A stretch of 64,000 bases of DNA, from contig NZ_FXTP01000005.1 in assembly GCF_900182705.1 (NCBI RefSeq), positions 1 through 64,000 on the forward strand, written 5' to 3'. Below are positions 28,286-45,944 of the stretch, in pieces (within the stretch, counting starts at the first letter, position 1; every line of letters begins with the position of its first letter). The DNA comes from Gracilimonas mengyeensis (GTDB lineage Bacteria > Bacteroidota > Rhodothermia > Balneolales > Balneolaceae). Below the pieces are notes generated by a model, which did no database searches, was not told the origin of the DNA, and saw nothing but the letters and a program-made list of their open reading frames with translations. Both the position numbers and the translations under genes were made by a program.

Positions 28286-30421
28286 GGGACAATTCCTCTA
28301 AGGTGCGATTAAAACTCCAAATTGATCTCGCAGGTAGACCAGGTTGTAGTTCTTTCAATTCCTCTAAGGTTCGATTAAAACCTGAACAAGCAAAATGTAT
28401 TAGAAGTAGATACAAGCTTTCAATTCCTCTAAGGTTCGATTAAAACCGCCCTTGTAGGGGATGATATAGGCAAAGCCAAGGTCTTTCAATTCCTCTAAGG
28501 TTCGATTAAAACGATGATTCAAGCCGTTCAAAGCGGGCAATATATGCCTTTCAATTCCTCTAAGGTTCGATTAAAACCAATTGTTAACGGGCAACGAAGT
28601 GAGTTTCGGCAGGCTTTCAATTCCTCTAAGGTTCGATTAAAACTCCAGTCCAGGATTATAACGGAGAGGGTAAAGCCCCTTTCAATTCCTCTAAGGTTCG
28701 ATTAAAACTAGCAGAAATGGGCTATCCTCAATTTTCAAAAATGAGCTTTCAATTCCTCTAAGGTTCGATTAAAACAAGGCGATTGTTCATTTGCGATTAG
28801 CTCATCAATCACTTTCAATTCCTCTAAGGTTCGATTAAAACCACAGGAAGATAAAAATATGTTGATTGGTTTAGCTGCTTTCAATTCCTCTAAGGTTCGA
28901 TTAAAACTCGCCAGTAACGTGCCTTTCTTCAATATGATTTAAGCTTTCAATTCCTCTAAGGTTCGATTAAAACACTCTATAATTGGCCTGTACTGCGTCA
29001 AACTGGTAACTTTCAATTCCTCTAAGGTTCGATTAAAACTTGAACTTCATTAATTTTTAAATCACTAAAAACTTTCTTTCAATTCCTCTAAGGTTCGATT
29101 AAAACAAGGATGCACCAAAGGCAATGTTTCTGCTAACGTGCTTTCAATTCCTCTAAGGTTCGATTAAAACCGGGCTTAATACCTGCTGCAATGTCTTTCA
29201 GTGTGTCTTTCAATTCCTCTAAGGTTCGATTAAAACTGTGAATAACACGAGAATGATGAATGTTAATAGATTCTTTCAATTCCTCTAAGGTTCGATTAAA
29301 ACTAGCAGAAATGGGCTATCCTCAATTTTCAAAAATGAGCTTTCAATTCCTCTAAGGTTCGATTAAAACGATTTACCCAAACTTCAGTAGGAATTTGTGT
29401 CAAACTTTCAATTCCTCTAAGGTTCGATTAAAACGAGGAAATGGCTACCTATCCGGCAAAGTGGAGCGTCTTTCAATTCCTCTAAGGTTCGATTAAAACG
29501 CTGTTTGCTGAGATATCATTGCCTTGGCTGTCTTTCTTTCAATTCCTCTAAGGTTCGATTAAAACTTACCCCGTTAAAAAAATATACAATGAATGATAAC
29601 CTTTCAATTCCTCTAAGGTTCGATTAAAACTTGAAGTACCTAAAGTGTTCATCCTGGTAGTTTTCCCTTTCAATTCCTCTAAGGTTCGATTAAAACCAGG
29701 CTATCACATAAACTTCATTTTTGATTTTTCCACTTTCAATTCCTCTAAGGTTCGATTAAAACCCGTGCATCGCAATATTACTGCCTTGGGCGATATTCTT
29801 TCAATTCCTCTAAGGTTCGATTAAAACGAAAAAATTTGGATGGACAGTCGGTGCGGTTATCGCTTTCAATTCCTCTAAGGTTCGATTAAAACGGGCTACT
29901 CGATGAATGTAAATGTAAGTGAGGTTATCTTTCAATTCCTCTAAGGTTCGATTAAAACCAGGATAAATATGGAGCAAATGATTCACCAACGATACTTTCA
30001 ATTCCTCTAAGGTTCGATTAAAACTATGATTAAGATTCCGACGTACAGCCCGAATAATCCCTTTCAATTCCTCTAAGGTTCGATTAAAACGAAAAGAAAA
30101 TGCGGCCGCAAACATCGATATTCCCCCTTTCAATTCCTCTGAGGTTCGATTAAAACCCGCCCGTCAATACCGGGCCACTCCCGGATATTTACTTTCAATT
30201 CCTCTGAGGTTCGATTAAAACGAAGCAGTGGAAGCCCGGTTCATCTTAGGATGATTCCTTTCAATTCCTCTGAGGTTCGATTAAAACATTGAAGGCGGAA
30301 AGGTTTGTGTCCCTGAATACCTACTTTCAATTCCTCTGAGGTTCGATTAAAACTAACAACTTCCTGACCCTTGAGCCTGAACCGGATTATTCTTTCAATT
30401 CCTCTGAGGTTCGATTAAAAC
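28286..30421 (-). CRISPR. CRISPR array 1 (33 repeats, 32 spacers)
   Basis: The repeat is 30 bases; in crRNA sense it begins GTTTTAATCG, has CCTTAGAGG in the middle and ends ATTGAAAG, the typical I-B-like 5' handle. Units are 65-67 bases with spacers of 35-37. The leftmost repeat (28286-28315) is degenerate, marking the old end; the right end next to the conserved leader is the new end. The five rightmost repeats (30127-30421) share one A to G change (plus strand CTCTGAGG), absent from the others. One spacer occurs twice (28709 and 29303) and two are shared with array 2. Confidence 0.99.
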
Positions 30422-30679
30422 ACGTTGGAAAATCAACGTCTGTTGGCTGTAAATACTATTTTTTTGGAAAAAATGATACTGTTCTGTCGTCTGGTGGAGA
30501 AACCGTAATATAGGCGCGGGGCTGACGATCGCCCAAAAAGGCCTCCATAACTCTTCTGACCTAGGTTTTTAAAATTGAGGCATATTTTCACCCAAACGAC
30601 TGCTCTAAACTTTCAGGGGCGACGAGTTTTTATTGAGTGATTGGTTCACTGAATCATTGAGTCAATTGGTCAATGAGTA
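30422..30679 (-). promoter_or_regulatory. Leader of array 1
   Basis: The leader touches the last repeat at 30421. It opens with a dyad ACGTTG-gaaaat-CAACGT (30422-30439). An ungapped 71-base comparison with the array 2 leader gives 44 identities by hand, including TAAATAC at offset 29, AAATG at offset 50 and TCGTCT at offset 66. On the minus strand TATTTA (30455-30450) is a candidate -10; the -35 (GTATCA) is weak. The outer part near 30633 holds TTGAGTGATTG-type repeat sequence next to cas2. Confidence 0.8.
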
Positions 30680-30943
30680 CTAAACAAAATTGTCTACGTC
30701 GTTTTTCTCTACGCCCAGTACTTCGCGGTTGCTCCAGCGCTTGCTACCTACGCAGTAGATGATGATGGAGTCTTCTTGTTTATTCATCAGTTCCGTGATC
30801 TTGTATTTTAACTCTTCGAGTTGGGCATCGGTGAGTTCACCTTCAAACACGGAATTCTGCACATGGTTCATATATTCGCGCACCAGCTTCAGCATTTTGG
30901 CTACGCGTTTCACGTTGACGTCGTATACGAGGATGTAGTACAT
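30680..30943 (-). CDS. cas2: CRISPR-associated endoribonuclease-like protein Cas2
   Basis: Cas2 forms the structural core of the Cas1-Cas2 integrase that inserts new spacers at the leader end. It is 87 aa, the normal size, with the ferredoxin-like start MYYILVYDVN and conserved Asp8 after beta1. The gene is last in the cas operon, 67 bases after cas1, and its stop is 259 bases from the last repeat of array 1, so the array leader directly abuts it. Note TTGAGTGATTG-type repeat sequence just past its stop. Confidence 0.95.
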   Translation of the reverse strand: MYYILVYDVNVKRVAKMLKLVREYMNHVQNSVFEGELTDAQLEELKYKITELMNKQEDSIIIYCVGSKRWSNREVLGVEKNDVDNFV

Positions 30944-31010
30944 ATGTATTCTTTTTAGTAGAAGACCTGTCTGGTTTTAAAAACCTGACAGGTCTATTAA
31001 TTCTATACAT

Positions 31011-32105
31011 TCACCACCAAGCCTTAAACGGCTCGTAGGCCTCAGCATCAGTGATGTGCTTTACCAGCTTGTAGCATTCCAGCCGAATGAGCCGCCGATA
31101 GGATACTTTGCGGTTCAGCTTGCGGTGCATGATGGTGGTTTGGAGTTTTTCTTCAAAAGCTTTCACAAAGGCCTTGCGTCCTTTTTTGCTTAAATGGCAG
31201 AAATTAAGGTCTTCTTCAAAATCAGAATGTTTGATGCGGCCTTGGTTCAGGCAGGTAAAAATCACGCGGTCTGCCAGCAGCGGTTTAAAGATCTCGGCTA
31301 AATCCAGGGCCAGCGAATAGCGGCGGTCGCCCGGTTCATGCAAAAAAGAAACGAGCGGCGATAATTGCGTGCGGTAGATTTCAGTAAGGCAAGTAGTGTA
31401 CACCATGGCATTGCCAAACGAAATGAGTGCATTTACGGCATTATCCGGTGGATTTTTGACACGTTTTTCAAAATCATACTTTTCTCCTAAAATAGTTGGA
31501 AAAGCCGCATAATAGCTTTGGCGGATGTTGCCTTCCAGTCCCATGAGTTGCTGAATATCTTCTGCCAGCGGCACTTCATCCATGTGCTTTTCAATCTTGG
31601 TGATATGCTCGGTCAAATCCCCGGCTCGTCCGTTATAATATTTCAAATTCCGGAGCATATTATATCCCGATCCCATCACCAACTGCAAAGCCAGCCGTAT
31701 ACGTTTTAGCCGACTTTTATAATGCTCTACCTGGTTCACCAATAAAAAACCACTCAGCAAATATTCCCGCGGATAGTAGCTGCCACTGTAATGGCCATAG
31801 TAATTGAACAGGTGCGCCGGAATGTTGTTTTTGGAAAGGAAGCGTAGCATCCGAGCATTGAAATTGATTTCACTGAATATCATCAGCGAGTCAACATCGT
31901 CGATGGGAATCACCCGCTTGTTTAGCGACTCAAAGTCTTTTTTAAATTCCCCGGCTTCGGTGATGAGCTCCCACTCGGTAAAACTCTTTTCTTCCACTTT
32001 GGTTGCTTCCAGCAATTCTTCCTCTTCTTTATAAGGCAAAAAGAACAGGGTATTTTGCTTTCGCATTAATTTTCCAGAGGTAAATATGTAGTAGGGGCGT
32101 TTCAT
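31011..32105 (-). CDS. cas1: CRISPR-associated integrase Cas1
   Basis: Cas1 is the metal-dependent integrase that joins prespacers to the leader-proximal repeat. At 364 aa it is slightly long, in line with subtype I-B Cas1. The metal/active residues are in place: Glu191 (LEGNIRQ), His256 (FLHEPGD) and Glu271 (DLAEIF). The N-terminal beta domain starts KRPYYIFTSG. The neighbours are cas2 downstream and a four-helix-bundle gene upstream, where cas4 would normally be adjacent. GC is visibly higher here (47-55% in two counted lines) than in cas3-cas7. Confidence 0.97.
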   Translation of the reverse strand: MKRPYYIFTSGKLMRKQNTLFFLPYKEEEELLEATKVEEKSFTEWELITEAGEFKKDFESLNKRVIPIDDVDSLMIFSEINFNARMLRFLSKNNIPAHLFNYYGHYSGSYYPREYLLSGFLLVNQVEHYKSRLKRIRLALQLVMGSGYNMLRNLKYYNGRAGDLTEHITKIEKHMDEVPLAEDIQQLMGLEGNIRQSYYAAFPTILGEKYDFEKRVKNPPDNAVNALISFGNAMVYTTCLTEIYRTQLSPLVSFLHEPGDRRYSLALDLAEIFKPLLADRVIFTCLNQGRIKHSDFEEDLNFCHLSKKGRKAFVKAFEEKLQTTIMHRKLNRKVSYRRLIRLECYKLVKHITDAEAYEPFKAWW

Positions 32106-32124
32106 GAATTGAGTGATTTAATGA

Positions 32125-32150
32125 TTGAGTGATTGAGTCAATGAATCAAT
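32125..32150 (+). repeat. 26-bp direct repeat, left copy, flanking the IVP gene
   Basis: The copy opens TTGAGTGATTGAG and ends AATGAATCAAT. It matches the copy at 32555-32580 at 24 of 26 positions. It lies between the cas1 start and the IVP stop. Related TTGAGTGATTG sequence occurs at 30633 beside cas2. Confidence 0.8.
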
Positions 32151-32153
32151 AGT

Positions 32154-32525
32154 TCAATGAGCCAATCCTTCGCCGGCGGTGTGCTTCGACTTTGCCACAA
32201 TAGCCAGGATTTCTTCTCCTTCCGACATTAAAGAATCAACAACTCTTTCCGCAGCCAGTTTTGCATCTTGGATCATTTCCAGCCAAAAAACCGTCTCATC
32301 AGCTTCCTCAACTACAATACATATTTTGGCATAAAACTCTTTTGCCGACCGTCCCCTGCAGGCAGCCCGATAATTCGCTGCTACGGATGTCGCCGATTTT
32401 ATAATTTGATAACTGATCACATTTGCTTCCCTGCTCTTAGGCAATTTCCGAGATAACTCTATGACAGCTAAAGCAAATGCCTTGGTTCTTTTTTGCATCT
32501 TTTGGGCCAAATCAAGCTTATTCAT
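32154..32525 (-). CDS. Four-helix-bundle protein (23S rRNA intervening-sequence type, S23)
   Basis: A 123-aa all-helical protein of the S23/IVP family, with FALAVIELSRKLPKSREANV, QIIKSATSVAANYRAACRGR and the VEEADETVFWLEM core that typify it. Members are found in 23S rRNA intervening sequences and as free cassettes; the fold is shared with the Avd accessory protein of diversity-generating retroelements, but no reverse transcriptase or template repeat is near. It sits between cas4 and cas1, bracketed by 26-bp direct repeats, as if inserted. A role in adaptation is not shown. Start ATG 32525. Confidence 0.85.
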   Translation of the reverse strand: MNKLDLAQKMQKRTKAFALAVIELSRKLPKSREANVISYQIIKSATSVAANYRAACRGRSAKEFYAKICIVVEEADETVFWLEMIQDAKLAAERVVDSLMSEGEEILAIVAKSKHTAGEGLAH

Positions 32526-32554
32526 AGTTTTTTATTTAATGATAGGTTTTTTTA

Positions 32555-32587
32555 TTGAGTGATTGAATCAATGAGTCAATCACTCAA
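32555..32587 (+). repeat. 26-bp direct repeat, right copy, with a 12-bp inverted repeat
   Basis: The second copy runs 32555-32580. It extends into a perfect inverted repeat with arms TTGAGTGATTGA (32555-32566) and TCAATCACTCAA (32576-32587) around a 9-base loop. It lies between the cas4 stop and the IVP start. Confidence 0.85.
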
Positions 32588-32590
32588 TTC

Positions 32591-33148
32591 TCAGCTATAA
32601 CACAGCTCATTATAAGAGCAGCTTTTGCAGATTTCCCACTCTACGGTTTTGGGTGGTTTGTCGCGGTTTTTGATTTTTCGGATGTTAGGTAGAATTTTGT
32701 TTTCCAGCTCTTCGCGATCGGCTTTGGATAGCACAATCCGTTCCGTTTGGCGGAGTTTGGGATAATTCAGCTCACCGATATAACCCCGTTTTTCGGGTTG
32801 ATCCGGGTAGTTTTCCATTGATCCCTCATCGGCAATGTGCATGCCCTTTTGCTCCAGGTACCACATATAATACTTCAGCTGCCAGGTATGCGCCTTATCC
32901 ATGCTGGCCGATTTTTTTACTTCGTGAATGATCTTCTCCTCATGATCCATCCAATCCACCACGATCACCCCGTCGATGGACACTTCTTTCTTTTCACGCT
33001 TGTAGCTGGTTTCATGGATATGCTTGCCCAGGCGTACGGCATCACTTTCCTGCTCGCACTGTATGTTATGTGCAAAAAACCACAGCTTGCGGGCGCAGAT
33101 AAAATAGTAGGCCACTTCGGTTCCGGTGATGGGGGATGGTTGGTTCAT
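32591..33148 (-). CDS. cas4: CRISPR-associated exonuclease Cas4
   Basis: Cas4 is a RecB-like nuclease that trims prespacers and helps select the PAM before integration. The 185-aa protein keeps Cys18 (YFICARKLW) and Cys174, Cys177 and Cys183 (CKSCSYNELC) for the 4Fe-4S cluster, and the nuclease residues Asp65, Glu76 and Lys78 (HEVKK) with Gln90 (QLKYYMWYL). In most type I-B loci Cas4 precedes Cas1 directly; here an IVP gene separates them and a REP-associated transposase gene precedes Cas4. GC in a counted line is 53%. Confidence 0.95.
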   Translation of the reverse strand: MNQPSPITGTEVAYYFICARKLWFFAHNIQCEQESDAVRLGKHIHETSYKREKKEVSIDGVIVVDWMDHEEKIIHEVKKSASMDKAHTWQLKYYMWYLEQKGMHIADEGSMENYPDQPEKRGYIGELNYPKLRQTERIVLSKADREELENKILPNIRKIKNRDKPPKTVEWEICKSCSYNELCYS

Positions 33149-33160
33149 GGTTTTCCTTTA

Positions 33161-33195
33161 TAAACCTCCAAGGTTTCCAAAACCTTGGAGGTTTA
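33161..33195 (+). repeat. REP-like palindrome, class A, downstream of the transposase
   Basis: A 16-bp perfect inverted repeat with arms TAAACCTCCAAGGTTT (33161-33176) and AAACCTTGGAGGTTTA (33180-33195) and a CCA loop, between the RAYT stop and the cas4 start. Confidence 0.95.
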
Positions 33196-33203
33196 TATTT
33201 TGT

Positions 33204-33836
33204 TCAAGATTCAAATAAGGTGATTGATTTCCCAAAATTCATTTCACTGTGGATACCCTTAAAATTCTCCATAGTCCCAAACCACTGCATCGCTTCAGCT
33301 TTACTCACATTGGTTAATTTATCTAACACATATGCATTCCAGCTGCTGTATGGCCAATCGTTCAGGTTTTTAGTAAAACCGTGGTGGATGGGGTTGTTGT
33401 GGATATAGGCAATGAGTTGGGTGAAATATTGGTTGGAGTTGATGAGTTTGCGGTTGAAGTTTGGCATAAACAGGCTGCCTTTACGATTGTATTTTTTGTT
33501 GTAAGCTTTTGTATAAGCGTTAAAAAGATTGGAAAATTGTTGACTTACTAAACCTCCAAGGTTTTTGAAACCTTGGAGGTTTTCCCCTTCGGCTCCATTT
33601 TTCTTCTTTAAAAACTCTACTAAATGCTCCTCATTTTTCACCCGCACCATCAAATGCAAGTGATTCGGCATCAGGCAATACGCAAAAGTATCAACCACTG
33701 GGTAGACGTGATGCAAATATCTTTCCAAGAAATAATTATAGTTCTCCTCGCTGCGGAACAAGTTTTCATCGCCATTGGCGTGTGTCCAAATATGGTAGGT
33801 GTACCCCGGTTGTAATGGAATGCGTTTTTGTGGCAT
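33204..33836 (-). CDS. REP-associated tyrosine transposase (RAYT, IS200/Y1 family)
   Basis: A 210-aa single-strand HUH transposase. Catalytic His59 and His61 lie in MPNHLHLMV; a C-terminal helix with QYFTQLIAYIHNNP contains the candidate nucleophile Tyr137/Tyr144. RAYTs move or maintain REP palindromes, and here class A palindromes (TCCAAGG/CCTTGGA) flank the gene and one (33550-33582) lies inside it, adding the residues ENLQGFKNLGG (85-95) in frame. The gene splits cas3 and the 148-aa gene from cas4, cas1 and cas2. No terminal IS ends are visible. A Cas-type transposition role is not indicated. Confidence 0.93.
   Translation of the reverse strand: MPQKRIPLQPGYTYHIWTHANGDENLFRSEENYNYFLERYLHHVYPVVDTFAYCLMPNHLHLMVRVKNEEHLVEFLKKKNGAEGENLQGFKNLGGLVSQQFSNLFNAYTKAYNKKYNRKGSLFMPNFNRKLINSNQYFTQLIAYIHNNPIHHGFTKNLNDWPYSSWNAYVLDKLTNVSKAEAMQWFGTMENFKGIHSEMNFGKSITLFES
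33550..33582 (+). repeat. REP-like palindrome, class A, inside the RAYT coding sequence
   Basis: Arms AAACCTCCAAGGTTT (33550-33564) and AAACCTTGGAGGTTT (33568-33582) with a TTG loop, perfectly paired over 15 bp. It is read in frame within the transposase (residues about 85-95). Confidence 0.95.
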
Positions 33837-33865
33837 GGTTAAGAATTTATTTGTCGTTCTTTACC

Positions 33866-33898
33866 AACCCTTCCGGGGTTTGGAACCCTGGAAGGGTT
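33866..33898 (+). repeat. REP-like palindrome, class B, upstream of RAYT
   Basis: The left arm AACCCTTCC-GGGG-TTT pairs with the right arm ending CCTGGAAGGGTT, with mismatches against the intact class B copy at 34500-34532. It lies in the spacer between RAYT and the 148-aa gene. Confidence 0.8.
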
Positions 33899-33976
33899 CA
33901 TACAGGTTGAACTGTACTTGTATTAGTAAGAGCGCCGAAAACCCAATTCCTTACAAAAATTTTTTAGTCGTGGGCT

Positions 33977-34007: not shown

Positions 34008-34024
34008 TAATGTATAAGCGATAA

Positions 34025-34565: not shown

Positions 34566-36821
34566 TTAAACAAAACTATCTTCTTGCGGTTTTTCCCTTT
34601 TTAGGTTCAGAATTAAACCTTCAGTGGGTGAATAAATACTTGTATAGGGCAGAGTAATTTCCTCATCATCTACAGAAAACTTTATTTCCTGAGCACGACT
34701 TAGTTGTTTTCCTTTTTCAATTTGCCATATCGGACATGAAATTCCATGTTCTAATTCAAAATCTCTGTACTCTCCATATGTATTAAAATCATATGGTTTT
34801 TGAGTGAGTACTATACGTTGAGGAGGAATATCCCGACTTAACCATTCAGAAGTTTCAAAATCATCATCTTTAGATTCAGCTTTTGGTAAAATCAGCCAAT
34901 TCATCGAGAGGTGCTCATTCAGAGCCATTTTATTTAAGGATGCTTTATCACTAAAAGGTTTCTGTTCAGGGTATAAATAGTTTACAGCATCAACAAAATC
35001 TTGGGCTGAATATGCTTTTTCTTCCAAAATTTCTTCTGTTTTAACAAAAGCCTCAGCCGGAACCCAGTTTTTCTCATCCCGATCAAAACTCCCATATGGT
35101 GCTGAGTAAACTGCTCCATCTTTGGTAGGTGTAATTATATGTACATCTCCTGTGGCCATTCCTTCAAACCTGCTGAGTCTTCCTACTCTTTGAGTTAATC
35201 GGTCCATAGGACATAGATCGCTAATCATGAAGGGAGCACTGATATTTAAACTCATTTCTCCAATCTGCGTTAATATTGCAACTCCACTTGCATCGTTACT
35301 TTCCCAAGCTTTTTTGCCCAAAGCATCAATTAAGTCTCCTTCAATCCTTTTTTTGTCATATTCAGTAAAACGTGAATGATATAGAATCGGACTAATACCC
35401 TTGCCTTTGAACCAATCCAAATATTTGAGCGCTCGGTTTACCGTATTTGCATAGATAATTGCTCGCGGAATAGGTTCTTCAAGAATTGACAGTAAGACAC
35501 CTTCTATGTCTTCAAGATTTTCAATATTTCCCTCAATCTTTATTCTACACCTCTTGCGGTTAGCTTCCTCACGAGCTTTACTATTTTTTTTCGCTTGTTT
35601 TGAGGTATAGGGATCTATTACATTTTGAATGCCATAAAGATCTTTAGCAGATTCTGGAACCGTGGCACTCATGATCATTACCCTGATATCAAATACACGA
35701 AGTACTTCTAACAGTTTTGTGATGTTGGCTTGAATAAATTCATCATAAAAATCAGCCTCATCAATTACTACGCACGAATGCATTAAACTAAAAAAGATAC
35801 TATGATGGTCTTCCCGGGTTCCTGTTAGAGCCATTAATAAATGATCAATAGTAGTGACTGTAGCTGGCATTAAAAGTAGACGAGCAGCTTCAATTATATC
35901 TTTTACTCCTTCATTATTTCCTGCTTTTTTATAGCGGGCATACCAAGCGCTTGAATGGTAAAGGCCGGTAGCACTTATGTCTTTAGATATATCTAAATCC
36001 AATGAGGTTGATGTAAACCGAGTAGGCATGGCGATTACGAGCCTATCGGCAAACCCATTTTCTATTTGTTCCTTAGCCCATAATAAAGCTGCATCTGTTT
36101 TCCCGCTTCCTGTTGGAGCTCGTAAAATAATCTCCTGTTTATCGCTGTGTTCTAATACCGCTTGTTGAACGGGCCTTTTGCTGGCATATTTAAATTCATA
36201 GTCAAAACTATAATTAAGAGGAGCCAATTCAATCCCAGCTTCTCTTTTACTGGCTCGGTGATCAGCAAGCTGTAACAAACTACGCACTCCAGCAACTTGA
36301 TACCTCTTTAAAAGAGCTTCTTTGGGTAATTGCTGTCTAAGCAGATCCGTGTTATAAACTTCCCGGCAAAACTCTTCCCAAAAGTCAATAAATGCTCCAT
36401 TATCATCATTTTCCCACCTATGTTGATGCTTAAAACTTAGCTTTCTGTGGTGTGCTGCTATAGCTGCTTTTTCGGCAAGAGTTATTGGAATATTCTGTTT
36501 ATCAAGCCACCATAATGAAGCAAATTCATGGCGAATCCCAGAATTTCTTAGGTTTTTAGATTGCTCTTTTCCAGTTTCAAGATAGAATTGGCGATCTTTT
36601 TGACAAGCTCGTTGCCAAGTATCATGCGCTTTTCCCTTATCATGATATTTGGCCGCATTTATGAGCTGCCCTCCTAAATCAGTGCCTGTAATACGTTTAT
36701 ACTTTACAGACCAATAAGGAAAAGTATCAAGTAACGTTTTGGCTTCATCAATTACATGCTGAGTATGATCTTCGAGTGTAATAGGATTTCTACCAAATGG
36801 CTTTGCAAGTATCCTATTCAT
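34566..36821 (-). CDS. cas3: CRISPR-associated helicase-nuclease Cas3 (HD-fused)
   Basis: Cas3 is recruited by Cascade to unwind and degrade invader DNA. The 751-aa protein has an N-terminal HD nuclease domain (His19; His60-Asp61 in KYHDKGKAHD; His98; His124-His125 in AAHH) and a superfamily 2 helicase with Walker A APTGSGKT (235-242), DEAD box (354-357), and motif VI RVGRLSRFEG near 545. All catalytic residues look intact, so the system should be interference competent. Its ATG overlaps the cas7 stop by eight bases. The coding sequence is AT-rich (38% GC in a counted line), unlike cas1 and cas4. Confidence 0.96.
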   Translation of the reverse strand: MNRILAKPFGRNPITLEDHTQHVIDEAKTLLDTFPYWSVKYKRITGTDLGGQLINAAKYHDKGKAHDTWQRACQKDRQFYLETGKEQSKNLRNSGIRHEFASLWWLDKQNIPITLAEKAAIAAHHRKLSFKHQHRWENDDNGAFIDFWEEFCREVYNTDLLRQQLPKEALLKRYQVAGVRSLLQLADHRASKREAGIELAPLNYSFDYEFKYASKRPVQQAVLEHSDKQEIILRAPTGSGKTDAALLWAKEQIENGFADRLVIAMPTRFTSTSLDLDISKDISATGLYHSSAWYARYKKAGNNEGVKDIIEAARLLLMPATVTTIDHLLMALTGTREDHHSIFFSLMHSCVVIDEADFYDEFIQANITKLLEVLRVFDIRVMIMSATVPESAKDLYGIQNVIDPYTSKQAKKNSKAREEANRKRCRIKIEGNIENLEDIEGVLLSILEEPIPRAIIYANTVNRALKYLDWFKGKGISPILYHSRFTEYDKKRIEGDLIDALGKKAWESNDASGVAILTQIGEMSLNISAPFMISDLCPMDRLTQRVGRLSRFEGMATGDVHIITPTKDGAVYSAPYGSFDRDEKNWVPAEAFVKTEEILEEKAYSAQDFVDAVNYLYPEQKPFSDKASLNKMALNEHLSMNWLILPKAESKDDDFETSEWLSRDIPPQRIVLTQKPYDFNTYGEYRDFELEHGISCPIWQIEKGKQLSRAQEIKFSVDDEEITLPYTSIYSPTEGLILNLKREKPQEDSFV

Positions 36822-37743
36822 CTACTTGTTCTGCAAACTGTTCAAAGGGTATTGGGTCCGCTCCATCTGTTGGATCGACAAGAGATTCTAAGCTTTCAGC
36901 AGCTTTTTCGTAGGCTTCAAAAACTGTCAACCCATCTTCTGTTGTATCATCTCCAACAAAATATTGGGCTTCTCGGGCGTCTAATTCCTTTTGGAAGTTA
37001 TTCTTCTCAATCTCTGTCATTTCAAAGAAACGAGCTCCTTTTCGAGATAGTCGATTATCCAATACTATCAAAACTTTTTGGGGTTCACCGGTTGTCGCAT
37101 TCCGGGCTTGGTTTGCATAATCGGTTAAGTAGCGGGTTCCTTCTAAAAATAATTTTGCTCTTCTTTTTCTTTCATCATCGTCAACATGTTTAACATATTC
37201 TGTTTTTACATGTCTTTCGTCTTCATATTTAAACCCTTTGCTAATTGAAAGTGCCGAAGCATCGAGATGGAAGCTCATTTGCATGGTGTCAGACTGACTA
37301 AACTCATTGGTAGCAAGAGCCTGTTTTTGTTCCGAGTCAGCATTTGGGTCTTGTTTTAGTCGAATTAACAAATCCCGACCAATATCACTTTCATCAAGAG
37401 ATACAGCCATTGTTGCACTAACAGGAGCTGTTCGTCGTCCAGAATAATCTCCTTGGGATGGATGCATAAAACCGCCCATATCAGCCCGCAAATCTTTTTC
37501 AATTATATTGGTAGTACCATCACCATTGCTTACATACGTATTGCCCCGTTCAGAACTTTCAAGATTTAAACGTTCGATTGCGCTGAACAATGCTTGTCGC
37601 TGCATTTGTCCAGAAATATACACTCTGCCATCCGGCCGGCGTTTTATAGAGGAAGCATTTCCCAAAAGCTTTTCCCCTCCGTTTGCAATATGGTTGTCCA
37701 TTTTAGCTAATATGGTTACCGAAATTCCTTTTACGTTTTCCAT
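36814..37743 (-). CDS. cas7: Cascade backbone protein Cas7 (DevR/Cst2-like)
   Basis: Cas7 subunits coat the crRNA spacer in Cascade. The 309-aa protein starts VKGISVTILAKMDNHIANGGE and shows YISGQMQRQALFSAIERL and RRTAPVSATMAVS, the RRM-type core with the G-rich thumb of the DevR/Cas7 superfamily as in type I-B and I-C systems. A charged insertion (EDERHVKTEYVKHVDDDERKR) lies mid-protein. It starts 18 bases after cas8 ends and overlaps cas3. AT-rich (35% in a counted line). Subtype assignment by Cas7 alone is uncertain. Confidence 0.88.
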   Translation of the reverse strand: MENVKGISVTILAKMDNHIANGGEKLLGNASSIKRRPDGRVYISGQMQRQALFSAIERLNLESSERGNTYVSNGDGTTNIIEKDLRADMGGFMHPSQGDYSGRRTAPVSATMAVSLDESDIGRDLLIRLKQDPNADSEQKQALATNEFSQSDTMQMSFHLDASALSISKGFKYEDERHVKTEYVKHVDDDERKRRAKLFLEGTRYLTDYANQARNATTGEPQKVLIVLDNRLSRKGARFFEMTEIEKNNFQKELDAREAQYFVGDDTTEDGLTVFEAYEKAAESLESLVDPTDGADPIPFEQFAEQVDE

Positions 37744-37761
37744 AATTTTCTCTTATAAAGT

Positions 37762-39288
37762 TTAGTTAGTTGTGAATGTTTTTCCCTCTGCAGTAGAAGC
37801 CTCATCTTCCGATTTAGCCGATTTTTTACCTTTAAGCCTCATATAGGCTAAGATTAGCTGCTTTGCGGTATCAATAGATATTTTACCTGTGTTGGTTGCT
37901 TCCATAAATGCAGAGGCACCTCCCGGCACATCTCTATTTGACATACGACCAGCTTGCACATTTAAGCGAGCAAATAATTCAGTAGATGTCTTGCAGCTCA
38001 TTGCGGTGCTTTCCAATTGAGCTAATACCCTTGCCTTAGCTTCAAATTCATTCTTGCCGGTTTGTTTATTCTCAGCTTCATTCTTGCCAATTAAATAGGC
38101 AACTAAATTTAGATATGAACCATAAACTCTTGCGGATTCTATGATTTCTTTTGAGATGTTTGCTTCATTCATAAAATAATCCTCCAGGATTGGTGAAAAT
38201 GAGTGTGGATATTGAAGGCGAAAAGCCAAAAAATCTTTAAACGCCGATTTGGAGTAGAGTTGAAGGAATCGACTTGACATATCCAAAAATAGTAATCGTG
38301 TCGGATTGTCTCTTCTGTTATGCTCTGGATTATAAAAATCTGCATAGTACAATCCATTAATAGCTTGAGGTAGATTCTGTTCCTTGGCTAATCTTGCTAT
38401 ATGGTGCCCTAAATGGATTTGTTTAAATAGACTAGCTTCGTAGCTAACCAAATAAATAGGGTTATTTACCAGCTTAGCAATAACCTCATCCATTTGATCA
38501 AGAATATTTACCTTCTTAGCCCAAACGCCCATCGCGCCAGCTAATCCCACAGGACCGAAAACCGGGGTGTTTGGTGCATTTGGATAGTTACCATTAAAAA
38601 GAGGTGGACGATAATTTTTATTTCCTGCTTTTAACTCCCGCACTTTGAGATTTTCTGTTTCCCATGACCTCATCTTATTAAAAAGATCGATAAATAAGAG
38701 AAGGTCATTTAGTGGTAGATCAGGAATTATTACCTGATTTTTAAAATCTAACTGTGCTGCTGGTTTATATTGAGTTAGAGTAGCCGCCATTGTAAAACCA
38801 GCTTGTAGCAATGTAGCTTTCGGATTGCTTAGAGTTTTTGAGCCTTCATTAATTTTTGTGGTAAATGGTGAAAAAGACCTTTTCAGTTGAACTGTTTTAT
38901 CTAAACCTTTTCCTTTAGAAAGCTTTTTAACCATTTTTTTCGCTTCCCCAATGAGCCTATTTGCACTGGTATCGCCGGTTGCAATGTGGGGAGCTAAATA
39001 ATATAAGTTTGAGGAGTCCTGTCCAGCAGACTTCTTTGTTGCTAATTCATCAGCTTCAAGATACCTGTACCGTAACTCGGTGTCTGCATTATCAAGGGGC
39101 TTATCTTCAGTATGTAGTCGATATGTATGAAGAGCATCATTTATAAACTTTCCAGCTAAGTCAGCCAATTCTTCTTTTCTTGGAATTGTGTTAGGTGTAA
39201 CGGTTTTTATTTCCGCATGATATAAAACTGATGCTAAGCCATAGCGAGGATATGGATGGTCAAAATAAATCATACTAAATCCTCCCAA
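37762..39288 (-). CDS. Cascade large subunit Cas8-like (subtype not assigned)
   Basis: By position between cas5 and cas7 and by length (508 aa, or 503 from the preferred ATG at 39273) this is the Cascade large subunit, which normally recognises the PAM and recruits Cas3. It has no zinc-type CxxC pairs as in Csh1/Cst1 and I do not recognise a standard Cas8 family. Seen: MIYFDHPYPRYGLASVLYHA at the start, a basic middle (KKMVKKLSKGKGLDK), FGPVGLAGAMG, a helical C-terminal part and an acidic/Ser tail. The 39273 ATG overlaps the cas5 stop as ATGA, a coupling arrangement that supports that start. Confidence 0.75.
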   Translation of the reverse strand: MGGFSMIYFDHPYPRYGLASVLYHAEIKTVTPNTIPRKEELADLAGKFINDALHTYRLHTEDKPLDNADTELRYRYLEADELATKKSAGQDSSNLYYLAPHIATGDTSANRLIGEAKKMVKKLSKGKGLDKTVQLKRSFSPFTTKINEGSKTLSNPKATLLQAGFTMAATLTQYKPAAQLDFKNQVIIPDLPLNDLLLFIDLFNKMRSWETENLKVRELKAGNKNYRPPLFNGNYPNAPNTPVFGPVGLAGAMGVWAKKVNILDQMDEVIAKLVNNPIYLVSYEASLFKQIHLGHHIARLAKEQNLPQAINGLYYADFYNPEHNRRDNPTRLLFLDMSSRFLQLYSKSAFKDFLAFRLQYPHSFSPILEDYFMNEANISKEIIESARVYGSYLNLVAYLIGKNEAENKQTGKNEFEAKARVLAQLESTAMSCKTSTELFARLNVQAGRMSNRDVPGGASAFMEATNTGKISIDTAKQLILAYMRLKGKKSAKSEDEASTAEGKTFTTN

Positions 39289-40058
39289 CTTGCTTCAACC
39301 CATCCGTCATTCGTACCCAAATAAATGGGTGAATTCGGATTGTTCAAAGCAAGTTCAATTTTATCTTTTAGCAGCTTTGTAGTTTTTACTGAGAAAACAT
39401 ACTCACCTTTTGGAATAACATACTCTCGTGGAGTTGGACTTGTATAATATTGCGGAAAGTGAGGGCGAATAGCATTGAAGTGAACCTTGTCATCATCTGA
39501 TACCCCAACAAGTTCTTTGGGATCTCGAATATTATGCTTTGCTGAATCCCCAAAACTTATAAGGTTCAGTTTTTCCATATTTACTATTCTTTCTAAAGAG
39601 ACATCATAATTTCTACTTCCACCAGGAAAAGTAGCTCCACTGCCTCTAACGTGACGAGCCCACAAATCATCAAAGTGTATAGTTTCAGGTTCAATATGTG
39701 GGCCAACAAATTTTAAGTGATGCTGTAGAATACTTTTAAAACCTACTCCAGACTCATCATCTTCTTTTCCGGTAATCCACTGTGATTTTTTTAACGGGTC
39801 ACTCCGGTCTAATTTTTTCTTTGCAGCCTTTCTGATTTCCTTTAAAATCGTTGTCCGATCTTTTGGCCCAAAATGCCACCCCAATGCATTTTCAAGCATA
39901 CCGTAAAGCATATTAACGGTTGGAGCTGACTGACTTCTGTAATACGTTCCCGGTTGGGTAGTAGTCATTGAAAGAGGTGATAAAGCCTCGATTACAATTT
40001 TACCCTTTTCGGTTAATTCAGGTGGTTCCAGGAAAAAGTTTAAATCTATGTTCTTCAT
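39270..40058 (-). CDS. cas5: Cascade protein Cas5
   Basis: Cas5 caps the 5' handle of crRNA in Cascade. The 262-aa protein has the N-terminal RRM motif IEALSPLSMTTTQPGTYYRS followed by APTVNMLYGMLENALGWHFG, matching the conserved sTLyGxLenxlG helix of Cas5, and the GEYVFSVKTTKLLK strand near the C terminus. It begins 14 bases after cas6 ends and overlaps cas8. Since a dedicated Cas6 is present, Cas5 is not expected to process crRNA as in type I-C. Confidence 0.88.
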   Translation of the reverse strand: MKNIDLNFFLEPPELTEKGKIVIEALSPLSMTTTQPGTYYRSQSAPTVNMLYGMLENALGWHFGPKDRTTILKEIRKAAKKKLDRSDPLKKSQWITGKEDDESGVGFKSILQHHLKFVGPHIEPETIHFDDLWARHVRGSGATFPGGSRNYDVSLERIVNMEKLNLISFGDSAKHNIRDPKELVGVSDDDKVHFNAIRPHFPQYYTSPTPREYVIPKGEYVFSVKTTKLLKDKIELALNNPNSPIYLGTNDGWVEASWEDLV

Positions 40059-40072
40059 ACTTAGTACTCCTT

Positions 40073-40747
40073 TTAATCTATAGCCCCAAAACCACTTCCG
40101 GTTAATTCTCCAACTCCAACATTCCAGGCAAACTTTACCGCTTCTGGAGAGCCTTCAATTTTAACGGGGCATACACTGGCTCTTAATTTGGTTCCTTTTA
40201 TGTCGACTAATTTTGTTTGAGGATTAGGATAGCTTCTGTCAAAAGAAATGCTGATATCAGACTCCTTTTCGTTGAAGTTGGCTGCCTCCAATTTTGCCTT
40301 CATGCGTCTTGTTAAAATTTCATCAGATTCTTTCTCACCGTATAGCAAATGCTTACGAGAACCATCATCTTGATTGGAACGAACCAACACCGGACTTGCT
40401 ACTTTGAATCTGTAATCCTTCCCAAATTCAGGAATAGCTTGTTCTTTTACTTTATCAACGTTCATTCCAAAAATCACTTCCGGTTTCTTTAGAATCCCAT
40501 TTTTCAGTTTCTCTGTATGCTCATCTTCCCAAAAACTAATAAACCACCTTGCCCCATTTGGGAAATTCAACCCGCCATCCACACGCTCAACCTTCCCCCG
40601 CAGCCACGAAAAAGAATACAGCGAAATTTTATCGTGCAACTCATTTTCCCCCAGCCATTTGTGAAGCACCCCGGTTAATTGATGTTGATAGTTGAATGGT
40701 ACCGGCTGCGTATTCGGTGTAAGTGTAAGATGTAGTCTCATAAACAA
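40073..40747 (-). CDS. cas6: crRNA-processing endoribonuclease Cas6
   Basis: Cas6 cleaves the repeat of pre-crRNA, leaving the 8-nt handle. At 224 aa it carries the C-terminal glycine-rich loop GVGELTGSGFG (211-221) and an N-terminal tandem RRM with YQHQLTGVLHKWLG (20-33), where His22 or His29 may be catalytic. A shorter start at ATG 40741 (MRLHLTLTP) is also possible. It is the first cas gene, behind a TATAAT at 40776-40771. GC changes within the gene from about 50% (5' end) to 33-40% further in. Confidence 0.92.
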   Translation of the reverse strand: MFMRLHLTLTPNTQPVPFNYQHQLTGVLHKWLGENELHDKISLYSFSWLRGKVERVDGGLNFPNGARWFISFWEDEHTEKLKNGILKKPEVIFGMNVDKVKEQAIPEFGKDYRFKVASPVLVRSNQDDGSRKHLLYGEKESDEILTRRMKAKLEAANFNEKESDISISFDRSYPNPQTKLVDIKGTKLRASVCPVKIEGSPEAVKFAWNVGVGELTGSGFGAID

Positions 40748-41206
40748 AAATTTCCCTTTAAGTGAAGTGCATTATAATCCCCAACAGTGACAAAACCCGT
40801 CACCCCAAAAACAAAAAAATCCCAAAATCTTTTCATCAAAACGCATGGAACATTAATATTAATTGAGTTCATGATTTTTTGAGTTATTGATTAGCTGAAT
40901 GAAACCAACAAATCAAAAATCAACCATCAACAATCACATGTCCTTCCATGCTGCTAATACGCAGGTAAGCTAACTTTTTTCGAAAACCAACATTGCTTTT
41001 TCAGGCGTTTTCGCCTCTCCTTGAATTAAGTTTATTTTGAACTTAGTTGCAAGTTTTACTAATGGATTTAGTTAATGAATCAATGAGCTAATTACTAAAT
41101 CACTTAATTAAGCAGCCTTGTATATGTTTTTTATTTCTATTAGAATTTATTCATCCCACTATCACTTATTGAATAGAATCTTCATAGCATCACAAATCTT
41201 TTTGTT
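40748..41206. promoter_or_regulatory. Cas operon promoter region and repeat-bearing spacer
   Basis: This 459-base region separates cas6 (minus) and the UPF0158 gene (plus). On the minus strand TATAAT at 40776-40771, 24 bases before cas6, is a good -10; no clean -35 is seen, but a dyad GTGAC-aaaaccc-GTCAC (40787-40803) covers the -35 position. Further right, AATGAATCAATGAG-type sequence (about 41070-41090) resembles the direct repeats around the IVP gene. No ORF or RNA gene is supported. Confidence 0.55.
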
Positions 41207-41905
41207 ATGGCCAATTCGTCAAGATTATCTCTCAGCGACCTTTTCCTTCAGGAACTTGAATCAGCCTATAACGAAAGCAGCTACATGATGCACTGGTACA
41301 TCGACCTACAGCAAAACTCCGTCACCTTTATCTCCGAAGATTATAGTGAAGATGAAGACTTGGTTGACCTGATTGAAAACGATGTGGACCAGGAACGCTT
41401 CATCCCCATACCCCGCTGCAACTCCAGGGAGGGCTACCGGCAGATGGAGCGGTTTATTGAGGCGCTGGATGATGCCCACAAACAAGAAGTGCTGTACTCC
41501 GCCATTGACGGTAAAGACTCCTTCCACCGGTTTAAAGATGCCGTGTACCGAGTGGGACTGTCAGACCAGTGGCACGAATTCAAGAATCGTGAGGATCGCG
41601 CCGACGTGCTTCAGTGGCTCCACGGGGAAGGTTTGATTGAAGAAGCCGACATTGAAAAAGGCTCACAGATGTACGAGAAGAACCTGGCCTCCCGCAAACG
41701 CCGGGAAGCGAACCTCCAGAAAATGGTGAAAGGCGCTACGGTAATTTGCTCCGGGAATTCCGGACATGTTGAACAAGTTACCCCAGGGAAAACCTATGAA
41801 GTACTGGACGAACAGCAACAACAGCTAAACATCCGCATCAGGGACGATCGCGACCGCCTCATTTGGATACCCAAAGCGCATTTTGAGTTAGTGACTGAAG
41901 CTTAA
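41207..41905 (+). CDS. UPF0158 family protein with SH3-like C-terminal extension
   Basis: A 232-aa soluble protein. The N-terminal ~150 residues match the UPF0158 family: WYIDLQQNSVTFISEDY, FIPIPRCNSREGYRQMERFI, AIDGKDSFHRFKDAVYRVGL and WLHGEGLIEE. The C-terminal ~60 residues (VTPGKTYEVL...RLIWIPKAHFEL) look like a small SH3-type barrel that is not part of the usual family. Function is unknown. It stands alone on the plus strand between the cas operon and array 2, transcribed opposite to the cas genes. It is not a known cas gene. Confidence 0.75.
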   Translation: MANSSRLSLSDLFLQELESAYNESSYMMHWYIDLQQNSVTFISEDYSEDEDLVDLIENDVDQERFIPIPRCNSREGYRQMERFIEALDDAHKQEVLYSAIDGKDSFHRFKDAVYRVGLSDQWHEFKNREDRADVLQWLHGEGLIEEADIEKGSQMYEKNLASRKRREANLQKMVKGATVICSGNSGHVEQVTPGKTYEVLDEQQQQLNIRIRDDRDRLIWIPKAHFELVTEA

Positions 41906-41991
41906 AGATGATACTTTATCCTTTGCTTCCCAAAAGGGAATCGTAGTAAATCTATCTTCTAACATCTTCTCTTCACCAAATATCCCTCGCA

Positions 41992-43200
41992 GTGCCTGCA
42001 AAATTTCAAGACATTAAACAAAGCTGTTTACGCAATCAGGAGCTCACCCGCCGGCTTATTGATGAGTTTTTGCTCTATTATGCGGCCGACCGCTTTAACA
42101 TAGACCGGGAAGTACACAAGCAATTTGCCCGATACCGGCATTTTATTAAAGATGCACCAGAGCGGTGGATCAATATGATGAAGGCTCAATATATCGCGCA
42201 TCGTATCTTTAAAGAAGACGGGTTAATTAACCGGATTATCAACCATCGCACATTATCTCATTTGGAAGAAGAGGAAGTAGCCTTTTTACGCCAAAACCAG
42301 CGCAATCCCTGGCGATTTTCTTTCAGTCTGATTATAGATACTCCCGCTAAAGATTTTTTTGAGATGGAGGATGTGTTTACGGGCGATCGTTTTTTGCTGT
42401 ATTCTCCCGGAACCTCCAAGGGCCGCCAAAACCGGGAACCTCTGCTTTGGTTCAACCTGATTAATTTTAATGGAAAATGTTGGGAAACCTACGGGGTCAT
42501 CAACCCCTTTCATGGCTTTGAGCCGGAAGACATGCTATTTTATGCGTCACAGCTTCATCCCCATACATGGATAGAAGATTTCGACGAATTCACGCAGCTG
42601 GTAGAAACGGATCCGGTTCCTTTTATGCTTTTATTTTTAAAGTCGGATCTTCCTTTGATTGTGAACGATACGGATCAATTTGTGCAAAATACTGCGGAGT
42701 TTTTGGATGACACGTTTAACAGTTCCGCCCTTAAGCCCTCCTTTACCATAGAATATGCCCATGATGTGTACCGGCTGTCATTGAAAGACTGGAGCTCGTT
42801 CCCTCATTTTAGTATAGCTTATTATGATGAGAAGGAGCAGCTGCTCTTTTTATCGGCTACATCCGACCGTGGATACAACACGTTAGTGGATGCGCTGAAT
42901 GACTGTGGCTATGAGCTGCCACACAATCCAGACTTCAGGGTAAATATGGGGATGCTGGCAACCGTACAGGAAATTCTCAGGAAAGATATTAGGCTGAACC
43001 CATATGAAGCCATTTTTGACGATGTTGCGGAGGATGAATCGGGGCGAATGGATAACGTTAATAACATGCTGTCTGCCATCATTCCAGACATCAATGCCGG
43101 CAAAAAACCGGATGCTGAAAAGTTAGCTCAGCAATACGATGTAGATGTGGAAACGGCCCGAAAAATCATCAACGAAATTTGGAAGAAATATGGCAGATAA
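41992..43200 (+). CDS. Hypothetical protein of 402 aa between cas locus and array 2
   Basis: I do not recognise this protein. The frame starts at GTG 41992; an ATG at 42176 would cut ~61 residues. The N-terminal third is helical and basic (QELTRRLIDEFLLYY, QFARYRHFIKD); the middle has mixed alpha/beta with WRFSFSLIIDTPAKDFFEMEDV and LFLSATSDRGYNTLVDAL; the last ~35 residues (KKPDAEKLAQQYDVDVETAR) resemble a small helix-turn-helix. It follows the UPF0158 gene by 86 bases and ends 74 bases before array 2, whose trailer end it faces. DNA binding is inference. Confidence 0.6.
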   Translation: MPAKFQDIKQSCLRNQELTRRLIDEFLLYYAADRFNIDREVHKQFARYRHFIKDAPERWINMMKAQYIAHRIFKEDGLINRIINHRTLSHLEEEEVAFLRQNQRNPWRFSFSLIIDTPAKDFFEMEDVFTGDRFLLYSPGTSKGRQNREPLLWFNLINFNGKCWETYGVINPFHGFEPEDMLFYASQLHPHTWIEDFDEFTQLVETDPVPFMLLFLKSDLPLIVNDTDQFVQNTAEFLDDTFNSSALKPSFTIEYAHDVYRLSLKDWSSFPHFSIAYYDEKEQLLFLSATSDRGYNTLVDALNDCGYELPHNPDFRVNMGMLATVQEILRKDIRLNPYEAIFDDVAEDESGRMDNVNNMLSAIIPDINAGKKPDAEKLAQQYDVDVETARKIINEIWKKYGR

Positions 43201-43214
43201 ACCAACAGCTTGCT

Positions 43215-43276
43215 GGTGTAATTTCTCTAGTGTACTACTAAAATGGTTCAATGACTTAGTCACCCAATGAACCATT
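43215..43276. repeat. Possible fossil repeat and 9-bp inverted repeat at the array 2 trailer
   Basis: A weak match to the CRISPR repeat (AATTTCTCTAGTGTACTACT...) lies at about 43215-43244, 60 bases before the degenerate first repeat. It overlaps an inverted repeat AATGGTTCA (43242-43250) / TGAACCATT (43268-43276). Confidence 0.4.
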
Positions 43277-45944
43277 GATAATTCCTGTAAGGTTCGATTA
43301 AAACTTTATAGCAGAGGTGAATGAACCGGACATAGAGCCCGCTTTCAATTCCTCTAAGGTTCGATTAAAACCATTGCAACGAGCTGATAAAAGAAAGCTA
43401 CGACGCCTTTCAATTCCTCTAAGGTTCGATTAAAACTCCCTTGCTGTCTTGAAAACCGATATTGGCGTACATCTTTCAATTCCTCTAAGGTTCGATTAAA
43501 ACTGCTATTGGTGGCGATAAGGGCAACCGCATAGACACTTTCAATTCCTCTAAGGTTCGATTAAAACTTCCCTGTCAGCATCCACTCCATGTACTTTTCG
43601 TATCTTTCAATTCCTCTAAGGTTCGATTAAAACGAAGCCAAGCGCCGCGCCGCCAAACTCGAAACCAAGCTTTCAATTCCTCTAAGGTTCGATTAAAACG
43701 TATACTGCGTTCTCGGGTGCATAATGAATAATGTCTTTCAATTCCTCTAAGGTTCGATTAAAACCTGGCATGCAATACGGTTTGTACCTGTGGGCAACCG
43801 GCTTTCAATTCCTCTAAGGTTCGATTAAAACGTAGCTTTTGTGGAATTCTTTGGTTTGAAATTCTTCCTTTCAATTCCTCTAAGGTTCGATTAAAACGTA
43901 TGGAACCTGATCAGCTACATGCCGCTTCTGATTGCTTTCAATTCCTCTAAGGTTCGATTAAAACACTGGGTGTATTTCTGGACGCGACATCCAAAGCAGC
44001 TTTCAATTCCTCTAAGGTTCGATTAAAACTAATGAAGATGGCGGAATGCTTCTACTTGTGGTTACAGCTTTCAATTCCTCTAAGGTTCGATTAAAACTAC
44101 ATCACACACCGCACGGCTTCATCCTATATCTTCTTTCAATTCCTCTAAGGTTCGATTAAAACCAATATCATCCCATCGTGCCGGTTGTTTTAACCGACTT
44201 TCAATTCCTCTAAGGTTCGATTAAAACATCTGCCTGTAGCTGGTCCACATCGTCCCAGGGCAGCTTTCAATTCCTCTAAGGTTCGATTAAAACTATCACT
44301 CATTATGTGGGTACGGCTACAGGGGTTACTTTCAATTCCTCTAAGGTTCGATTAAAACTTAATGGCGCTTCCAAAAGCAGTTACCGCTTCATATCTTTCA
44401 ATTCCTCTAAGGTTCGATTAAAACCGTCCAGGCCGCCGGTTTGTCCAGTATCATTCGTGCCTTTCAATTCCTCTAAGGTTCGATTAAAACTCGGAAAAAG
44501 CAGCCTACGCAGAGCAATACGAGATGCTTTCAATTCCTCTAAGGTTCGATTAAAACCAAATGGCAGATACAAGGTTACATGTGGCTACTTGATCTTTCAA
44601 TTCCTCTAAGGTTCGATTAAAACGGCGCCTGGTCTTGGTAAAGTTAAACCTGAAGGGCCTTTCAATTCCTCTAAGGTTCGATTAAAACCTGGCATGCAAT
44701 ACGGTTTGTACCTGTGGGCAACCGGCTTTCAATTCCTCTAAGGTTCGATTAAAACTTTTTTTATTTGCCCTGGTGTAATTTTCCCAGGTATCTTTCAATT
44801 CCTCTAAGGTTCGATTAAAACTTTACCCCGTTAAAAAAATATACAATGAATGATAACCTTTCAATTCCTCTAAGGTTCGATTAAAACGGAATTAAAGGAA
44901 TTATACAAAGCCGGTTTGGACCGCTTTCAATTCCTCTAAGGTTCGATTAAAACGCAGTTGATAAGTTTCCATGATCGTTATTTTTCTTAACTTTCAATTC
45001 CTCTAAGGTTCGATTAAAACGGATTTACCCAAACTTCAGTAGGAATTTGTGTCAAACTTTCAATTCCTCTAAGGTTCGATTAAAACCCAGCATCTTCATT
45101 TTGATTATCCCGCAAGGTGCGCCTTTCAATTCCTCTAAGGTTCGATTAAAACTGCACACCGAACGTATAAAAAAGCATTAAAGAAATACTTTCAATTCCT
45201 CTAAGGTTCGATTAAAACTCAAACTGGTTCAAACGGTGAAACCGTTGAGACTGGCTTTCAATTCCTCTAAGGTTCGATTAAAACAATTGTAACCCAATCA
45301 TTGAAGATGCGGGGGTAGGACTTTCAATTCCTCTAAGGTTCGATTAAAACCTCGGTTGATGCTGATTCTTCCTGGAAAGGTTATTCCTTTCAATTCCTCT
45401 AAGGTTCGATTAAAACAAAGCCGTGAAAAAAAATATCATTGTCGCGAATCTACCTTTCAATTCCTCTAAGGTTCGATTAAAACCCCGCTCGTTTTATCAA
45501 TACTTAGCCGGTAAGCATTCTTTCAATTCCTCTAAGGTTCGATTAAAACTGCAAAGGATATATTTATCACCCAAGGTCGGGTCGGCCTTTCAATTCCTCT
45601 AAGGTTCGATTAAAACGTACTCACAAGGCGAGGCGACCATCAAGGAAATAACTTTCAATTCCTCTAAGGTTCGATTAAAACCTTTTGTTTATGCTCGGCC
45701 CGTACTGCATAACCCCGCTTTCAATTCCTCTAAGGTTCGATTAAAACCGGCTTTGCATTTCAGCCCTTCAAAGGAAAGCTTTTCTTTCAATTCCTCTAAG
45801 GTTCGATTAAAACCGCGTCCAATGTTACCTGAATGGCTTGGTGAGGGACTTTCAATTCCTCTAAGGTTCGATTAAAACCGGCTTGAAGAAGTGCGGGGCC
45901 ATAATGAGGAACTCCTTTCAATTCCTCTAAGGTTCGATTAAAAC
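43275..45944 (-). CRISPR. CRISPR array 2 (41 repeats, 40 spacers)
   Basis: The repeat is identical to that of array 1 and of the same orientation (crRNA on the minus strand, ends ATTGAAAG). The leftmost repeat (43275-43304) is degenerate, so the left is the old end; the right end abuts the leader at 45945. All other repeats are uniform and none shows the A to G variant of array 1. A spacer starting ctggcatgcaatacgg occurs twice (43765, 44689). Spacers at 44822 and 45021 match array 1 spacers with one extra base each. Confidence 0.99.

Follow-up and report, generated by a model that had tools for sequence, protein, structure and literature searches.

In type I-F CRISPR-Cas systems (clustered regularly interspaced short palindromic repeats and their associated proteins), adaptation is carried out by a Cas1:Cas2-3 complex without Cas4. 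A loose cut at the end distal to the protospacer-adjacent motif (PAM) was named the main source of spacer length variants in the type I-F system of Pectobacterium, where most off-length spacers map to canonical PAMs (PMC5059440). Cas4 cuts precisely at the PAM end and the other end is handled separately, as reported for type I-C (PMC6519985) and for Cas4/1 of type I-G (PMC10504553). In the type I-G assays, the non-PAM end carried overhangs of 6-8 bases (PMC10504553). On integration, the leader side of the repeat is joined to the non-PAM end (PMC6519985). Here, we describe a type I-B locus with two CRISPR arrays in a 64,000-nucleotide stretch of Gracilimonas mengyeensis DNA (contig NZ_FXTP01000005.1, positions 1 to 64,000; the window), in which two spacers occur in both arrays with a common PAM-side end and a one-base difference at the other end. 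A fixed PAM end with a loose distal cut is already known from other type I systems. However, the Pectobacterium data concern laboratory acquisitions from plasmids by the Cas1:Cas2-3 complex (PMC5059440), whereas the window holds natural type I-B arrays, and the type I-C and I-G work is biochemistry on designed substrates, with no repeated capture in natural arrays described in the portions of those reports available to us (PMC6519985, PMC10504553).

The reasoning applied below has precedents. In Sulfolobus islandicus, spacer matches of different length or offset were treated as a signature of independent acquisition, with one unequal-length pair among them, and a consecutive exact match was excluded because an independent origin seemed improbable (PMC2946923). 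Those comparisons were made between strains, and 37 of the 41 pairs were offset (PMC2946923), whereas the window has both copies within a single genome, with a common PAM-side end. During type I-C priming in Legionella, one protospacer was captured twice independently, as we propose for the window, although that case comes from laboratory clones whose lengths were uncompared in the part of the report available (PMC5071653). We met no published survey of comparable within-genome spacer pairs, none having been specifically sought, and the underlying ideas are in print.

The window carries a type I-B (I-PGING) cas cluster on the minus strand with one CRISPR array at each end. Array 1 (28286-30421) comprises 33 repeats and 32 spacers with the leader to its right, and array 2 (43275-45944) comprises 41 repeats and 40 spacers with the same repeat and orientation. 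The 72 spacers are served by one common 30-base repeat, which reads GTTTTAATCG...GGAATTGAAAG in the sense of the CRISPR RNA (crRNA). The crRNA was taken as read from the minus strand, on the basis of the repeat sense and of the cas genes lying likewise on that strand. A 30-base repeat ending in ATTGAAA[N] (crRNA sense) with spacers of about 35-38 bases is typical of type I-B (I-PGING) systems; both arrays have this form, and related arrays show repeats like it. At up to 3 mismatches, the whole genome contains 72 copies of the repeat, every one within array 1 or array 2, and no further copy outside them. The leftmost repeat is degenerate in each array (5 mismatches each), and the right flanks, that is, the leader sides of array 1 (30422-30641, minus strand) and array 2 (45945-46164, minus strand), resemble each other beside the repeat and both end in T in the crRNA sense. 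We therefore assumed, for both arrays, growth on the right and leftward reading of the crRNA. All five repeats nearest the leader in array 1 (repeats 29-33, 30127-30421) carry one same A-to-G variant, which was seen in none of the repeats of array 2; such sharing is expected if each addition copies the leader-end repeat.

When all 72 spacers were compared with one another, without gaps and on either strand, four repeated pairs emerged, two across the arrays (A and B) and two within arrays (C and D). Spacer A lies at 29370-29404 in array 1 (35 bases, rank 15 from the leader end, counting from 0) and at 45021-45056 in array 2 (36 bases, rank 13), and spacer B lies at 29566-29600 in array 1 (35 bases, rank 12) and at 44822-44857 in array 2 (36 bases, rank 16), all on the minus strand. 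The shorter copies are identical to 45022-45056 (A) and 44823-44857 (B), an identity over 35 bases that is far past chance. The extra base of each array 2 copy (45021 for A and 44822 for B) stands at the left end on the plus strand, which is the crRNA 3′ end, and is C in spacer A and A in spacer B in the crRNA sense. The crRNA 5′ (PAM-side) boundary is identical between the arrays for both spacers, so that all variation is confined to the PAM-distal end. The order of A and B in array 2 is the reverse of that in array 1, and their neighbours are unrelated between the arrays, with no block in common. An earlier sequence-only reading had already put the array 1 copies at 35 bases and those of array 2 at 36, which the exact repeat and spacer table bears out, and had placed the common boundary at the crRNA 5′ end and the extra base PAM-distally, which follows from the repeat sense and the cas strand, both minus. 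Its age order, with A older in array 1 and B older in array 2, holds if the leaders are on the right, as the degenerate left-end repeats and similar right flanks indicate. The comparison of the 72 spacers returned A and B as reported and also revealed the two further repeats, C and D, that it had overlooked.

We consider it probable (roughly 0.87) that both protospacers were captured separately for each array by one Cas4-Cas1-Cas2 machine with a fixed PAM-side cut and loose distal trimming; cas4, cas1 and cas2 are all present at the locus. In this scheme, a single machine would serve arrays 1 and 2, and the protospacers of A and B would each be taken up once for each array. The PAM-side cut would fix the crRNA 5′ boundary, and the PAM-distal side would be trimmed less exactly, so that one event left 35 bases and the other 36. 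The distal end would then be attached by the integrase to the leader-end repeat already in place, at its first base. Because the non-PAM end is joined at the leader side, the loose end falls exactly at the position of the extra base. By inference, Cas4 is responsible for the fixed end, and the extra base stems from the protospacer. We also infer that the captures took place within one lineage, perhaps in one run of infections. The four copies of A and B, lying 12-16 spacers from the leader ends, suggest loading from one element in one period, and the odds are about even that both arrays were loaded in parallel from one invading element during a single stretch of infection. These copies fall within a band of five ranks (12, 15, 13 and 16), for which random placement gives 0.0047 on a measure that was picked after the data had been seen.

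To establish the normal appearance of repeated spacers, two sets of arrays were surveyed, with one genome per species. Set 1 combined arrays from genomes of the family, genome contigs with similar repeats and the surroundings of type I-B-form cas1 genes, the last from a search of the window's phylum that matched 57 of 394 genomes. The repeat-pattern search of contigs gave nine stretches, all from other named organisms (Bernardetiaceae, Fulvivirga, Chitinophaga and others), which we take to be Bacteroidota. Of 64 array calls with 3301 spacers found, 60 calls with 3233 spacers from 49 genomes were kept, after removal of a call with a 46-base repeat (G432), a doubled call (L043), an irregular call (G207) and a call with a 37-base repeat (G092). 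Set 2 came from other genomes of one class of the phylum (78 of 391 matched, many already in set 1; 40 new regions) and retained 34 arrays with 1939 spacers from 30 genomes; it was limited to repeats of 25-33 bases and to the side downstream of cas1, and several loci at contig ends were left out. Spacers outside 28-46 bases were removed before counting, giving a total of 5172. Set 1 arrays were oriented by how closely the repeat end resembles AATTGAAA, a weak guide that differs by less than 3 of 8 between the strands in 41 of the 60 arrays; it agreed with the cas1 strand in 42 of 50 arrays and disagreed in 8 (3 ties). The eight disagreeing arrays hold no unequal exact pair and include those of G201 and G161, the source of three CCN rows in the PAM readings below. 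Set 2 arrays were oriented by the cas1 strand, and the repeat end disagreed in 2 of 34, one of them G525, which holds the one exact pair that is shifted. In SKYG123, two pairs that differ by one base at the 3′ end were counted as substituted, the repeat there being called one base short.

Block duplicates kept their length in all 13 pairs found among the 5172 spacers. The 53 exact pairs that were neither in blocks nor adjacent, four of them from the window, comprised 35 of equal length, 17 of unequal length with the same crRNA 5′ end and one shifted at both ends. Thus, in 17 of the 18 unequal pairs the two copies coincide at the crRNA 5′ end, and one of them extends 1-2 bases further at the 3′ end. 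These 17 pairs (14 differing by one base and 3 by two) come from 10 genomes and include two of the window's; since two spacers each serve in two of them, they amount to 15 separate comparisons. With the window excluded, the 49 remaining pairs divided into 33 equal, 15 unequal with the same 5′ end and 1 shifted, so that 15 of 16 unequal pairs elsewhere keep the PAM-side boundary and vary PAM-distally. When adjacent pairs were included (n = 68), the counts were 46, 20 and 2, and in set 2 alone a common 5′ end was seen in 6 of 7 unequal exact pairs. Among 30 substituted pairs, 7 were equal in length (2 shifted), 19 were unequal with a common 5′ end and 4 were both unequal and shifted; some shifted ones resemble, by eye, a small insertion or deletion near the 5′ end. 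Only three pairs in set 1 crossed between arrays, two of them being A and B. Retention of the 5′ end by unequal pairs is expected if a protospacer is captured twice at one PAM and trimmed loosely on the distal side, and it is predicted neither by later mutation nor by repeat-mediated copying. The unequal pairs behave like separate captures, and the contrast with block copies supports the proposal of the sequence-only reading that A and B were captured independently with one-base trimming differences. In long arrays (138-281 repeats) of four genomes, L104 (G385), L105 (G436), L154 (G564) and L131 (G124), many repeated or overlapping spacers were seen, some pairs being substituted, and these arrays look like repeated sampling of evolving elements.

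Equal lengths were compared with those expected from independent draws. Among exact non-adjacent pairs, 21 of 32 were equal in set 1 (10.2 expected) and 14 of 21 in set 2 (7.9 expected), whereas substituted pairs showed no excess (5 of 20, 6.8 expected, in set 1; 1 of 9, 2.8 expected, in set 2). The equal-length share of non-adjacent pairs was 35/53 for exact and 6/29 for substituted pairs (Fisher p = 1.6e-4, for pairs that are not wholly independent). The excess in exact but not in substituted pairs indicates that the exact equal-length pairs are probably a mixture that includes many copies. Independent draws from the length distributions of the window's two arrays coincide only 40% of the time, so re-capture should often yield unequal lengths. 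How far apart the two copies lie within the array, in relative terms, was not significantly different for equal-length and unequal exact pairs (p = 0.28), nor for equal-length exact pairs and substituted ones (p = 0.16), and this distance therefore does not separate copying from re-capture.

Spacers C and D are the ambiguous cases. The two copies of C in array 1 (28709-28745 and 29303-29339, the second adjoining spacer A) and those of D in array 2 (43765-43801 and 44689-44725) all lie on the minus strand, and each pair is identical over 37/37 bases with unrelated neighbours. Block duplication, in which neighbours are copied jointly with order and length kept, was seen in none of the window's four pairs, whose neighbours differ in every case. 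Because array 1 has no 37-base spacer besides pair C, whereas 8 of 40 in array 2 have this length with D counted, we lean towards recombinational copies rather than re-captures. Constant-length copying probably accounts for some of the other repeats in the survey and perhaps for C and D as well.

The PAM was read from pairs of overlapping, shifted spacers of one genome, in which one spacer reveals the bases before the other. In set 1, CC stood at -3/-2 against the crRNA 5′ end in 12 of 17 rows, and a wider overlap search brought one further row each from G161 (CCG) and G385 (TGT). In set 2, all 5 rows of G564 showed TTA or TTG, and all 7 rows of G467, G480 and G711 showed TCN. Wherever a motif is readable, then, the PAM lies on the side of the fixed crRNA 5′ end. 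In the type I-B system of Clostridioides difficile, the reported motif is CCN (PMC8406132). The window arrays contain no overlapping pair that reveals the PAM of their own system. A peak of overlap offsets at 14-17 bases in set 1 (12 of 17 rows) was dropped, since only 8 of 29 rows showed it in set 2.

The source element was sought in several collections. Both arrays gave nothing better than E 0.6 against 50,697 phage records, and array 2, searched alone against 72,556 plasmid records, gave five records at E 0.02 or worse, three of which match at 71-73%, possibly to the repeats. The exact 35-base forms of A and B had no match in viral contigs, nor did protein-degenerate patterns (one frame each of B, C and D, and two of A). 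The 68 distinct spacers against 92 genomes of the family (its own counted), and the four repeated spacers against 244 genomes of the class, returned only the arrays themselves and partial matches of 18-25 bases, which we judged near chance. The genome searches scored at most three first-look candidates per genome, and the class search listed 5 of the 8 known copies in the spacers' own genome, so these searches were not exhaustive.

Several of these results weigh against separate capture with a fixed PAM-side cut. No protospacer of A or B was found in the phage, plasmid, viral-contig or genome searches, which were not exhaustive. CC is absent from 5 of the 17 set 1 overlap rows, which read TCT (G357), TCA (G421) and ATA (one of the three rows of G341) or belong to two near-identical pairs shifted by 3-4 bases (G385 and G436), and the other 17 of the 29 set 2 rows (G525, G527 and G653) are irregular without a common motif. 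With adjacent pairs counted, 2 of 22 exact unequal pairs lack a common 5′ end, and one-base slips on the PAM side were reported in type I-F (PMC4117759), where the PAM-side position shifts at times (PMC4117759, PMC5059440), which means that type I systems do not invariably hold the PAM end fixed. In addition, both longer copies sit in one array, which chance alone would give half the time, and the repeats flanking the copies of A and B are identical, so crossovers leave no mark.

Among the alternatives, the arrays might have grown in different cells or strains exposed to one same element and have been united later by horizontal exchange. Array histories are not traceable with one genome per species, and A and B were seen in none of the 91 other family genomes searched, which leaves room for this origin. 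However, the same repeat, the similar leaders, the single cas cluster between the arrays and the matching depth of A and B all suit side-by-side growth, and we regard exchange as unlikely. Still less probable is copying of A and B between the arrays by repeat recombination, followed by gain or loss of a base at the spacer-repeat junction. Copying probably does occur in such arrays, as the excess of exact equal-length pairs over independent draws suggests, and the window's own in-array repeats match at 37/37, and array 1 has no other spacer of that length. For A and B, however, the two spacers would have had to be copied singly, to end up in reversed order and each to undergo its own one-base insertion or deletion at the same junction. 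Random insertions or deletions would fall anywhere, yet 17 of 18 unequal pairs differ only at the crRNA 3′ end, and the 13 block copies are unchanged in length. A shifted leader-repeat cut that duplicated the last leader base would also add a base at exactly this position, but both leaders end in T and the extra bases are C and A, which makes this origin very improbable.

The cas genes, all on the minus strand, follow the order cas6-cas5p-csp2-csp1-cas3 and then cas4-cas1-cas2. The locus contains the full gene set of the I-PGING form of type I-B (cas6, cas5, cas8, cas7, cas3, cas4, cas1 and cas2, with csp1, csp2 and cas5p). The adaptation genes are cas2 (30680-30943; TIGR01573, E 1.9e-13), cas1 of the type I-B form (31011-32105; TIGR03641, E 3.7e-132) and cas4 (32591-33148; TIGR00372, E 6.9e-19). 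They are followed by cas3 (34566-36821; TIGR01587 and TIGR01596), cas7/csp1 (36814-37743; TIGR03489, E 5.3e-125), a cas8c/csp2-like gene (37762-39288; TIGR03487, E 9.6e-75, at 252 bits below the curated cut-off of 462 bits), cas5p (39270-40058; TIGR03488, E 7.2e-33) and cas6 (40073-40747; TIGR01877, E 6.8e-29). Between cas1 and cas4, a gene at 32154-32525 (minus strand) encodes a 23S ribosomal RNA-intervening-sequence (four-helix-bundle) protein (PF05635, E 2e-15). An open reading frame between cas3 and cas4 (33204-33836, minus strand) had no Pfam match and presumably resembles a transposase associated with repetitive extragenic palindromes; short palindromic 'cctccaaggttt' elements were spotted by eye near and inside it. 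Adjoining array 1, a gene at 26419-27930 (minus strand) encodes a protein with four DUF7282 stretches.

The A and B pairs are a natural record of a two-sided cutting rule, in which one end is fixed and the other is loose by 1-2 bases. The gain is a method and a clear natural example rather than a new system. Applied to many arrays, the cutting rule helps to tell whether a spacer was captured repeatedly or copied by recombination, two processes that are hard to distinguish in natural arrays. If it is true, the PAM-distal wobble in spacer length would measure how often a Cas4 system re-takes the same protospacer.

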